The notes under the pieces are model-generated. The model saw only the letters and a list, made by a program, of their open reading frames with translations, had not been told where the DNA came from and did no database searches. From an uncultured Kordiimonas sp. (GTDB lineage: Bacteria; Pseudomonadota; Alphaproteobacteria; Sphingomonadales; Kordiimonadaceae), in contig CANLMI010000001.1 of the NCBI GenBank assembly GCA_947492375.1, positions 124,001-188,000 of the forward strand: a stretch of 64,000 bases of DNA, in the 5' to 3' direction. The number at the start of each line of letters is the position of its first letter. Within the stretch, counting starts at the first letter, position 1. Shown piece by piece: positions 25,811 to 34,361 of the stretch. Made by a program: the position numbers and the translations under genes.

Positions 25811-25825
25811 TTAACCTTTTGTTAG
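25811..25825. promoter_or_regulatory. Near-match to CtrA box upstream of PEP-CTERM gene
   Basis: TTAA-N7-TTAG, one base off the TTAA-N7-TTAA consensus, 47 bases before the ATG of the PEP-CTERM gene at 25872. Alone it would be weak. It is listed because the other two PEP-CTERM genes have perfect matches. Confidence 0.3.
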
Positions 25826-25871: not shown

Positions 25872-26450
25872 ATGAAAAAAATTATTATGGCGGCATTAAT
25901 GGCCGTTGGGGTGGCTTTTGGCGTATCCGCGAATACCACCATTACTTTTGACGCCCTTCCGGGCCCAAATGGTTCTGCCTTTGCCGGGCCTTATTTTGAA
26001 GGTGGTTTTGGTGTTACTGCTGAAGCTGGCGATGTGTTTTCTGGTCAAGTTTTTGGCTCACCTGTACCAAGCTTGGTTGTTGGTTCTGTCTTTGGCGGAA
26101 GCGCTTCTGCCACTGTTCGGGTTACTGGTAATACGTTTATTCTGAATTCTTTTGATCTTGCGTCCCAAGGGGTTGGGACTTTTATGATCAATGGATTTCT
26201 GGGTGGAAATTCCGTATTCTCTTTCGGGGGTAATTTAAGTGGCCCGCAAGCGTTCAGTACATTTGCAGGAATGGGAGGTAATGTTGATACAGTTGACTTT
26301 GTATTGACGAATGTTCGTTCCAGCTCGATCAATCTTGATAATATTGTCCTTGGTGCAGTGCCTGAGCCTGCTACGTGGTTGATGATGATTATTGGTTTCG
26401 CGACCATAGGGGCCGCTTTGCGTCGTCGTCAGGTCGTAACAGAAGCATAG
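25872..26450 (+). CDS. PEP-CTERM sorting-signal protein
   Basis: 192-residue exported protein: signal peptide KKIIMAALMAVGVAFGVSAN, a Gly/Ser/Phe-rich beta-type body, and the C-terminal sorting signal VPEPATWLMMIIGFATIG followed by RRR. That tail (PEP motif, TM helix, arginine cluster) is processed by an exosortase, typically in exopolysaccharide-producing Gram-negatives. The body has no recognised catalytic motif. No exosortase or EPS gene lies in the window. Monocistronic, with its own terminator 34 bases after the stop. Confidence 0.9.
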   Translation: MKKIIMAALMAVGVAFGVSANTTITFDALPGPNGSAFAGPYFEGGFGVTAEAGDVFSGQVFGSPVPSLVVGSVFGGSASATVRVTGNTFILNSFDLASQGVGTFMINGFLGGNSVFSFGGNLSGPQAFSTFAGMGGNVDTVDFVLTNVRSSSINLDNIVLGAVPEPATWLMMIIGFATIGAALRRRQVVTEA

Positions 26451-32341: not shown

Positions 32342-32356
32342 TTAACAAATAGTTAA
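32342..32356. promoter_or_regulatory. CtrA-type box, modA side
   Basis: Perfect TTAA-N7-TTAA (TTAACAAATAGTTAA) 51 bases upstream of the modA start codon and 282 before the PEP-CTERM ATG. It matches the binding consensus of the alphaproteobacterial cell-cycle regulator CtrA. Binding is inferred. Confidence 0.4.
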
Positions 32357-32469
32357 TATGCAAGGAGGCGGAATGTTATACTATCTTATTTTTTGCAAGA
32401 ATGCCTAGATTCAAATTGTCTATTGATAATAATGACTTAAATTGATTTACACGTAATTAAGTGTAAAGG

Positions 32470-32484
32470 TTAATAAATTCTTAA
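32470..32484. promoter_or_regulatory. CtrA-type box, PEP-CTERM side
   Basis: Perfect TTAA-N7-TTAA (TTAATAAATTCTTAA) 153 bases before the PEP-CTERM ATG at 32638. A one-mismatch copy (TTAG 32524, TTAA 32535) lies closer to the gene. Confidence 0.4.
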
Positions 32485-32560: not shown

Positions 32561-32590
32561 TTCAGGCATCGTTTCTGAGTTTTTCAGGCA
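32561..32590 (+). repeat. Direct repeat TTCAGGCA x2
   Basis: Two perfect 8-base copies at 32561-32568 and 32583-32590, 22 bases apart (two helical turns), 48-77 bases before the ATG of the PEP-CTERM gene. A shorter version recurs before the next PEP-CTERM gene. Confidence 0.5.
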
Positions 32591-32637: not shown

Positions 32638-33324
32638 ATGAGACACTTTAAAAATATATTTATGGCAGTGGCTGTACTGGCGGGTTCGGTAGCAGCGAGT
32701 GCAAGTACTACATTTGACTTTCGGACTTCCGCGTCTACTGGTACACGTAACGTGGATGATTCACTAACATTCATGGCTGGGGCACTCAGTGTTGATGTCT
32801 TCGGTTTCCGTGCGACTGATGGCACAGGTGTTAGCACACCTCTTTCTGGTTCATTGTCAAATGATCAGGTTTTCCAAGGTGGTAATGGCCTTGTATTTGA
32901 TTTTGAAGGCAGTGCTGCTGGTGCTGGCGGCGGTGATAATCACAGAGTTGATGGCCGTGGTTCTAATGAATTTCTAATCTTCAGCTTCAACAGGTCTGTT
33001 TCGCTAGATGCAATCAACTTTGATTTCGCTGGCGGCTTTTTCCAAGTGTTAGGTGGTGTATCGTTTGGAGCTAACAGTTTAGATGGTTCTAGCATCTTCT
33101 CTGGCCCTGTTGGTGGCGGTTTTCAAATCACGAACTTTAATCCAGTTCTAGGACCAGGCACAGTTTTCGCAGTTGGTGCAACTGGTCGTAACGATGAATT
33201 TAAACTTCGTACATTAACTGTAACTGGTGCTGTTCCCGAGCCTGCAACATGGTTAATGATGATCCTTGGTTTTGGCATTGTTGGCCTTGCTCGCAAGCGC
33301 CGTGTTAACAAGCAGTTTGCTTAA
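32638..33324 (+). CDS. PEP-CTERM sorting-signal protein (tandem copy 1)
   Basis: 228 residues: signal peptide (HFKNIFMAVAVLAGSVAASA), a beta-rich body, and the tail VPEPATWLMMILGFGIVG followed by RKRR. The body shares a layout with the next gene: VDGRGSNEFLIFSFNRSVSL against VDGRRANDVLVFEFSQRVRL, and GRNDEFKLRTLTVTG against GNDDFRVAGFNVTA, so the two are paralogues. No catalytic motif seen. Exosortase substrate by signature; role in matrix or surface is inferred from the class. Shine-Dalgarno GGGGA; terminator 46 bases after the stop. Confidence 0.9.
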   Translation: MRHFKNIFMAVAVLAGSVAASASTTFDFRTSASTGTRNVDDSLTFMAGALSVDVFGFRATDGTGVSTPLSGSLSNDQVFQGGNGLVFDFEGSAAGAGGGDNHRVDGRGSNEFLIFSFNRSVSLDAINFDFAGGFFQVLGGVSFGANSLDGSSIFSGPVGGGFQITNFNPVLGPGTVFAVGATGRNDEFKLRTLTVTGAVPEPATWLMMILGFGIVGLARKRRVNKQFA

Positions 33325-33399: not shown

Positions 33400-33533
33400 G
33401 TATTAATAATGGTTGTCAATGCTGTTAACCATTTTTGTTCATTATGTTTTTTAAGATGCTAGCGTCAAACTGTTGTAAAAAAACCAATATATCATCAGTT
33501 TACACACAAAAGAGTGAATACTCGCGGAGAGCG

Positions 33534-33559
33534 TTAAAAAAAAGTTAACAATAAATTAA
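33534..33559. promoter_or_regulatory. Overlapping CtrA-type boxes
   Basis: TTAA at 33534, 33545 and 33556, each separated by exactly 7 bases, giving two overlapping perfect TTAA-N7-TTAA sites 118-143 bases before the ATG at 33678. The central element reads TTAAC as in the fuller CtrA consensus. Binding is inferred. Confidence 0.45.
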
Positions 33560-33604
33560 AATTGTGTAAGTTATCCAGACTATTAAATTTAGGACTAAAG
33601 ATAC

Positions 33605-33630
33605 TCAGGCTAGTAAGAAAGTATCTCAGG
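33605..33630 (+). repeat. Paired TCAGG elements
   Basis: TCAGG at 33605-33609 and 33626-33630, 21 bases apart, each preceded by AC or TC. Spacing and core resemble the TTCAGGCA pair before the upstream paralogue. Confidence 0.35.
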
Positions 33631-33677
33631 TGCGTTCCTAAGTATGTAAGTAACTAGTTTGTACATTGGGAGGTACA

Positions 33678-34361
33678 ATGAAAAAATTATTTAAGACAAT
33701 TGCTGCGGCAGCATTCTTTATCGCTCCGGCAGCTAATGCTACTACTTTTGCTGTTGATTTCGACTTCAGAGCTCCGGGCGGTGCTGTTGATGAAGCATTC
33801 TTCTCTGTAATGGGTGTTGATTTGACTGTTCGTGCAGGCACTTTTGAACCTCGCAGTACAGTTCGTATTGGTGATCGTGATGTATTCCAGTCAACTGCTG
33901 GGTTAGGTGTTCTAGGGCCAGATGAAGAAAGACCAGCTCGCGGCGATGAAGTGCCAGATTCAACAAATGTTGATGGTCGCCGGGCAAATGATGTTCTTGT
34001 TTTTGAATTCAGTCAGCGTGTTCGTTTAAATTCAGCTTCTTTCACATTTGTTGATAGCGATGATGAGTTCCGTTTTTTCCAGGACGTTGATGGTTTTGGT
34101 CAACTGATTGGTTTTGGTGGTAATACTCCTGTTGTTGGTGGACAAATTCCAATTCCTGGAAGCCAGGTTTTTGCATTTACACCGGGTTTATTTGACTCTG
34201 CATTGTTCGGTATCGGTGCATTACAGGGTAATGATGACTTCCGCGTTGCTGGCTTTAATGTAACAGCTCTTCCTGAGCCTTCAACATGGCTTATGATGAT
34301 TTTAGGCTTCGGCCTTACAGGTCTTGTGCTACAGCGTCGTCGTAGACTAGCTGCTGCATAA
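33678..34361 (+). CDS. PEP-CTERM sorting-signal protein (tandem copy 2)
   Basis: 227 residues from ATG 33678 (GGGAGGT four bases upstream; an in-frame TTG at 33666 is rejected). Signal peptide KKLFKTIAAAAFFIAPAANA, a body paralogous to the preceding gene, and tail LPEPSTWLMMILGFGLTG followed by QRRRR. The middle has an acidic/charged insert (GPDEERPARGDEVPD) absent from copy 1. Likely an exported surface or matrix protein; no enzyme motif. Ends in a strong terminator. Confidence 0.9.
   Translation: MKKLFKTIAAAAFFIAPAANATTFAVDFDFRAPGGAVDEAFFSVMGVDLTVRAGTFEPRSTVRIGDRDVFQSTAGLGVLGPDEERPARGDEVPDSTNVDGRRANDVLVFEFSQRVRLNSASFTFVDSDDEFRFFQDVDGFGQLIGFGGNTPVVGGQIPIPGSQVFAFTPGLFDSALFGIGALQGNDDFRVAGFNVTALPEPSTWLMMILGFGLTGLVLQRRRRLAAA

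Follow-up and report, generated by a model that had tools for sequence, protein, structure and literature searches.

The window analysed here, a stretch of 64,000 nucleotides from the genome of an uncultured Kordiimonas sp., includes three genes encoding PEPxxWA-CTERM proteins, all on the forward strand. Two of them are adjacent (32638 to 33324, 228 aa, and 33678 to 34361, 227 aa from the chosen ATG) and the third is located at 25872 to 26450 (192 aa). All three proteins match the corresponding profiles; the one encoded at 33678 to 34361, which follows a triple of TTAA elements, scores 38.7 bits with NF035944 (cut-off 35) and 26.7 bits with PF07589 (cut-off 20.7). The stretch from 33531 to 33563 (GCGTTAAAAAAAAGTTAACAATAAATTAAAATT) contains the whole triple, with TTAA at 33534, 33545 and 33556. 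These elements form two overlapping TTAA-N7-TTAA pairs, as claimed in an earlier note on this DNA and as confirmed by the sequence and by a pattern scan of the window: a first CtrA-type box at 33534 to 33548 (forward strand, TTAAAAAAAAGTTAA), with G before it and C after it, and also present in the orthologue of the sister species, and a second at 33545 to 33559 (forward strand, TTAACAATAAATTAA), the middle TTAA being common to both. By eye, a possible promoter can be placed on the same strand at 33556 to 33585, with a −35-like TTAAAA (33556 to 33561), an 18-base spacer and a −10-like CTATTA (33580 to 33585), so that the second box would plausibly overlap the −35 element. The counterpart in the sister species, also read by eye, has TTAAAA, an 18-base spacer of other sequence and then CTATAG. 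No fixed distance to a −10 element was detected across 45 aligned TTAA-N7-TTAA sites.

Two additional perfect pairs, absent from the earlier note, precede the gene at 32638 to 33324 on the forward strand: one at 32342 to 32356 (TTAACAAATAGTTAA), 296 bp before the gene, and one at 32470 to 32484 (TTAATAAATTCTTAA), 168 bp before it. Four of the five TTAA-N7-TTAA pairs of the window thus precede one or the other of these neighbouring PEP-CTERM genes. The near match that the note had placed ahead of the third gene is indeed present (TTAACCTTTTGTTAG, 25811 to 25825, forward strand), 61 bp before that gene. In the sister species, its reciprocal best hit, which shares 49% identity with it over 170 residues, is preceded by a perfect site at −50. 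An inverted repeat (TTTACACGTAATTAAGTGTAAA, 32446 to 32467) is also found ahead of the gene at 32638 to 33324. Taken alone, the five pairs of the window are not significant (2.55 expected; 8 of 100 shuffles reach five), and the case therefore rests on the genome.

In a marker search, the named relatives closest to the Kordiimonas genome (G000; 3.94 Mb in 23 contigs) are Pseudokordiimonas caeni and Kordiimonas sediminis. The genome encodes 20 PEPxxWA-CTERM proteins above the family cut-off, including all 16 matched by TIGR02595, and two exosortase-family proteins. Exosortase substrates are expected to have a C-terminal PEP-CTERM domain and to share their genome with an exosortase, and both features are present here. 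PEPxxWA-CTERM genes were detected in five of 29 genomes of the family (E ≤ 1e-8), and no further genome with such genes was found at E ≤ 1e-9 in a class-wide sample of 114 genomes. We assembled 105 genes from six genomes: 20 from G000, 25 from the sister species G001, 29 from G003 and 22 from G015 (both genomes of 61% GC), 8 from G005 and a single one from G012, which lies outside the family. This set retains one G003 gene (L099) that scores below the family cut-off; one G015 gene with 87 bp of upstream sequence is counted among the 105 and left out where 104 genes are given. Gene starts were chosen by a scoring script and not taken from an annotation. The 197 control genes (65 from G000, 44 from G001, 36 from G003 and 52 from G005; G015 is not included) are mechanically picked, unannotated open reading frames of at least 100 aa with at least 100 bp of free upstream sequence. 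In place of every intergenic region, sampled stretches were used, 160 kb for G000 and 120–140 kb for each of four relatives.

The earlier note had suggested looking for the 11-base pair upstream of other PEP-CTERM genes, and the pair is strongly enriched there in G000 as well as in four of five further PEP-CTERM-bearing genomes, as measured with the exact TTAA-N7-TTAA pair in place of a CtrA weight matrix. Among the 92 sites present in the 3.94 Mb of G000, 13 fall within the 20 regions of 300 bp upstream of PEPxxWA-CTERM genes. They are distributed over 11 of the 20 genes, compared with one of the 65 controls (Fisher's test, 8e-8), and dinucleotide shuffling of these 20 regions produced, in 500 rounds, a mean of 0.85 regions with a site and a maximum of six. 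The pair is found upstream of 11 of 25 genes in G001 (2/44 controls) and seven of eight in G005 (0/52 controls). The enrichment also holds in the two 61% GC genomes, with 11 of 29 genes in G003 (0/36 controls; no site in the 140 kb sampled) and 10 of 22 in G015 (one site in 140 kb). The sole PEPxxWA-CTERM gene of G012 has no site. Over the six genomes, the pair is present within 300 bp upstream of 50 of 105 genes; once similar upstream regions are collapsed, 35 of 72 clusters have a site, compared with three of the 197 controls of four genomes (Fisher's test, 2e-20). As for placement, 50 of 104 genes have a site between −300 and −1 and four of 103 between −600 and −301, and there is none on the coding side, either between +1 and +300 or between +301 and +600 (0/105 in both cases). 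Conversely, 9 of 20 PEP-CTERM genes in G000, and 55 of 105 over the six genomes, have no perfect pair.

The sites are conserved between close relatives. The G001 orthologue of the gene at 33678 to 34361 retains the three TTAA elements with unchanged pitch, in an island of high identity (33/36 at 33533 to 33568) bordered by more divergent sequences (31/52 at 33481 to 33532 and 7/16 at 33569 to 33584), and the leader that follows (33585 to 33677) is again conserved (83/93). A TTAA triple is also present in G005, ahead of a PEP-CTERM gene that does not form a reciprocal best-hit pair with the gene in the window. For the adjacent gene (32638 to 33324), the box at 32342 is matched by a perfect pair at the equivalent alignment position of the G001 orthologue; for the box at 32470, G001 has TTAATAAAAAATTAA at −178. 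More generally, G000 and G001 share 13 reciprocal pairs, of which 12 agree on the site (seven both with it, five both without it, one differing), so PEP-CTERM genes seem to form two stable classes, with and without the pair. In the more distant genomes, where pairs are few and the accord is lower, agreement with G000 is 2/3 for G005, 4/7 for G003 and 5/5 for G015.

The earlier note had also pointed to the presence of ctrA as a check of its proposal. An orthologue is encoded in G000, the genome to which this evidence refers, and reaches 424.9 bits with the NCBIfam CtrA model NF045991 (cut-off 350). The G000 protein shows 74% identity over 226 residues, and 69 of 82 identical residues in the DNA-binding domain, with the Caulobacter CtrA sequence; the NF045991 match is independent of this comparison. 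The stretch PELKIIDVFICKLRKKL, which we take to be the CtrA recognition helix, is identical in the two sequences. By eye, ctrA adjoins apparent fliI and chemotaxis genes. Components of a phosphorelay could be proposed: the best CckA-like and ChpT-like matches in G000 score 629.9 bits (cut-off 1000) and 184.6 bits (cut-off 240), respectively, with clade-specific NCBIfam models, and the ChpT candidate, encoded 6 kb from ctrA, passes PF10090 (86 versus 22.9). The region upstream of ctrA contains several TTAA half-sites and no exact 11-base pair, and neither of the two exosortase genes has a TTAA-N7-TTAA just upstream.

A motif belonging to CtrA would be expected at motility genes also in relatives that lack PEPxxWA-CTERM genes. 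Of the 27 family genomes with a motA match, 21 have the same pair upstream of motA, at −76 to −112 from the start of the match, no other spacing being found more than three times. It is present in 19 of the 22 family genomes without PEPxxWA-CTERM genes and in only two of the five that carry them. Since the pair occurs at motA in relatives lacking PEPxxWA-CTERM genes, the motif is not specific for the latter. At mucR, for which 30 of 41 matches had loci and were examined, the pair is found at 12 of 18 loci of at least 65% identity and at none of 12 loci of 51–58%. In G000, the pair is additionally found before a MucR gene, before motA and before a gyrB/parE-type gene, as well as before a MopJ-like gene that scores 30.4 bits (cut-off 200). 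Among the matches listed, 37 further places were examined in this genome; 12 are inside genes and many others precede genes with no evident link to CtrA, as expected for chance. Several other occurrences can be mentioned. Two DUF2336 genes have the pair upstream (C1:534036 and C1:1116617), one of them also matching the SpbR model (195.3 bits, cut-off 400). Two genes encoding RTX-repeat (haemolysin-type calcium-binding) proteins have it shortly upstream (G000:C1:439036 and C3:535510), and five TTAA at 11-base pitch, contained in a tandem repeat (G000:C1:558371-558418), lie just before a gene encoding a YihY-like membrane protein (named by eye).

The boxes could be bound by another OmpR-family response regulator, one whose DNA preference resembles that of CtrA and which is dedicated to exosortase sorting. 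Sites of the OmpR/PhoB family are in general built as 11-base direct repeats, G000 encodes four other OmpR-type regulators that are matched over most of their length with 27–37% identity to CtrA, and one two-component system adjoins an exosortase/exopolysaccharide cluster. This reading is improbable, however. The regulator beside the cluster, considered as a candidate for this role, is PhoB (TIGR02154, 347.5 bits, cut-off 296.2) and has PhoR-like and PstS-like neighbours; a dedicated regulator would not explain the pair at motA in 19 of the 22 relatives without PEPxxWA-CTERM genes; and TTAA-N7-TTAA is the known consensus of CtrA itself. The location of genes for PhoB, a PhoR-like kinase and a PstS-like protein (the last two identified by eye) beside the exosortase A/exopolysaccharide cluster (L123, G000:C1:1038500-1049500) would make a phosphate link possible.

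The form of the motif bears on the second alternative, in which a nucleoid-type AT-binding protein of the MucR/Ros family would act on AT-rich PEP-CTERM promoters and the pattern would merely reflect composition. G000 encodes two MucR/Ros proteins, and the upstream regions of its PEP-CTERM genes are slightly richer in AT than those of the controls (GC content of 0.366 versus 0.387). The note had itself cautioned that AT-richness raises chance matches; in four genomes, the composition control AATT-N7-AATT is found upstream of 12 of 82 PEP-CTERM genes and seven of 197 controls, far below the 40/82 and 3/197 obtained for TTAA-N7-TTAA in the same regions. AATT-N7-AATT being somewhat commoner upstream of PEP-CTERM genes, AT-richness thus adds a little, far less than the signal. 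The N7 spacing (11-base pitch) occurs 56 times in the 105 regions, far above every other (N14, 12 times; N18, 10 times). A dyad search that assumed no motif beforehand, run on G000, G001 and G005, in which 164,492 four-plus-four dyads were seen and those present in at least eight regions were tested, retrieved GTTA-N8-TTAA as best dyad (27 of 53 regions versus none of 161 controls). The consensus of the 45 aligned sites, obtained without G015, is GTTAAC-N5-GTTAAC, a direct repeat of 11 bases with one half-site per helical turn; G precedes the first TTAA in 87% of the sites and C follows it in 64%, the corresponding values for the second TTAA being 64% and 53%. The more restrictive pattern TTAACN6TTAAY is found at 21 distinct places, 10 of them ahead of PEP-CTERM genes; this enrichment is partly circular, because the pattern was picked after the sites were seen, and the main tests use TTAA-N7-TTAA as first given. 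The exact spacing, the conserved G and C around the first TTAA, the contrast between the shuffles and the 11 regions observed, and the enrichment in the 61% GC genomes G003 and G015 together make a composition effect mediated by MucR/Ros proteins very improbable.

According to the available text of Haft et al. (2006; PMC1569441), many proteobacterial PEP-CTERM genes, including those of R. rubrum, are preceded by the motif TTTACA and by a sigma-54 promoter associated with PrsK/PrsR, and one gene of this type has been shown to depend on RpoN (PMC9850573, in the part available). The genes studied here could use the same scheme: the start of an rpoN-like gene was recognized by eye in L118, and TTTACAC is present in the window at 32446 and 33499. 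Nevertheless, no PrsK above the cut-off was detected in the genome, the best match (97.4 bits, cut-off 300) being confined to the C-terminal kinase part. The TTTACA hexamer, tested alone (it forms the end of Motif 1), is found upstream of six of 20 PEP-CTERM genes and nine of 65 controls (p 0.10), TGGCAC-N4-5-TTGC in none of 53 PEP-CTERM upstream regions, and relaxed −24/−12 sites in one of 20 versus three of 65, so that the −24/−12 site is not enriched. On the strength of PrsK and these upstream elements, we regard the published scheme as highly unlikely for these genes. Chance in AT-rich DNA, with which the non-significant count of the window alone would be compatible, is refuted at genome scale by the enrichment, spacing, dyad-search, orthologue and position tests and deserves practically no credence.

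Some of the PEP-CTERM genes without the pair carry a different element. TTGAAACA, noticed after the fact, is present upstream of nine of 54 PEP-CTERM genes without the pair, three of 50 with it and none of 197 controls. It was seen three times as TTTGAAACAGTTTTA, and examples of the element, relative to the gene start, are located at −142 (L014), −169 (L001) and −184 (L029) in G000 and at −127 (L062) in G003. It may be the mark of a further regulator. The sequence TCAGGC shows moderate enrichment ahead of PEP-CTERM genes (18/53 versus 17/161) and was observed by eye, in several genes, from a few to about 20 bases downstream of the TTAA pair, which hints weakly at a part of the promoter. In the window, this hexamer is found at 32562 to 32567, 32584 to 32589 and 33605 to 33610.

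The presence of ctrA and the enrichment of the pair make CtrA-type control of PEP-CTERM genes well supported at the level of sequence; neither of the two outcomes that the note had named as counting against its proposal was observed. In our opinion, the TTAA triple very probably represents two CtrA boxes that overlap in the promoter region upstream of a PEP-CTERM gene. Within this lineage of Kordiimonadaceae, CtrA would exert direct control over about half of the genes encoding exosortase substrates. The earlier note had gone further and placed these genes under cell-cycle control. This last part exceeds the data, only about half of the genes carrying the pair and CtrA being chiefly tied to motility in some alphaproteobacteria, according to the accessible parts of two studies (PMC3692519, PMC6180460). 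We infer that CtrA is the binding protein, that it would activate rather than repress, and that expression would follow either the cell cycle or a switch between motile and sessile states.

A possible mechanism can be outlined. A CckA-ChpT-CtrA relay would phosphorylate CtrA, and CtrA~P would form a head-to-tail dimer on the direct repeat GTTAAC-N5-GTTAAC, each helical turn presenting one half-site. The gene at 33678 to 34361 is preceded by three half-sites, which would permit two overlapping dimers or an array of three subunits, the downstream dimer lying over the likely −35 element (TTAAAA, 33556). In the available part of a study on Caulobacter (PMC11264516), most CtrA-activated promoters have a site at −35, and additional upstream CtrA sites delay and reduce the expression of pilA. 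By analogy with this promoter, the downstream box might activate and the overlapping upstream box might tune expression. The likeness extends to the presence of several CtrA-type sites before a gene for a surface structure, one of them possibly at −35; unlike those of pilA, the sites of the triple overlap through the middle TTAA.

The bipartite 11-base motif and its upstream placement are those of Hyphomonas neptunium, for which the accessible text reports TTAA-N7-TTAAC as the CtrA ChIP-seq consensus (PMC7200025). They are also those of Caulobacter, with a ctrA orthologue whose recognition-helix stretch is identical to that of Caulobacter and the same box at the motility gene motA of relatives. 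The differences are that GTTAAC is here often retained in both halves and that the targets include many exosortase substrates, which were not reported as CtrA targets in the literature searched; in open-licence publications we found no report of a link between CtrA and PEP-CTERM proteins or exosortases, Kordiimonas and Kordiimonadales included. The box is an ordinary CtrA-type box, and what is new is the class of its targets. As in the PrsK/PrsR-sigma-54 regulon (PMC1569441, PMC9850573, from the parts available), a common cis element precedes many PEP-CTERM genes; however, both the element and the regulator differ here, PrsK and the −24/−12 promoter not having been found.

PEP-CTERM proteins undergo sorting and are linked to exopolysaccharide and to the formation of flocs, and CtrA is, in related bacteria, a master regulator of motility and cell cycle. 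That about half of the genes for sorted surface proteins carry its box suggests a surface coat switched by CtrA. We propose only tentatively, as a scenario slightly more apt to fail than to hold, that in PEP-CTERM-bearing Kordiimonadaceae the exosortase-sorted coat was rewired from sigma-54/PrsKR to CtrA. A single regulator would then set both motility and the surface proteome, perhaps including secreted RTX proteins, and would give different coats to motile and sessile cells, or to cells before and after division, a second, CtrA-independent class of PEP-CTERM genes being marked by TTGAAACA. As stated in the available text of Haft et al. (2006; PMC1569441), further regulators and motifs of PEP-CTERM systems were still to be found. 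The link with CtrA would supply one of these regulators for one lineage, would illustrate the way in which a master regulator acquires an entire group of surface proteins, and would open the production of the surface coat to tests of its timing with the CtrA toolkit.
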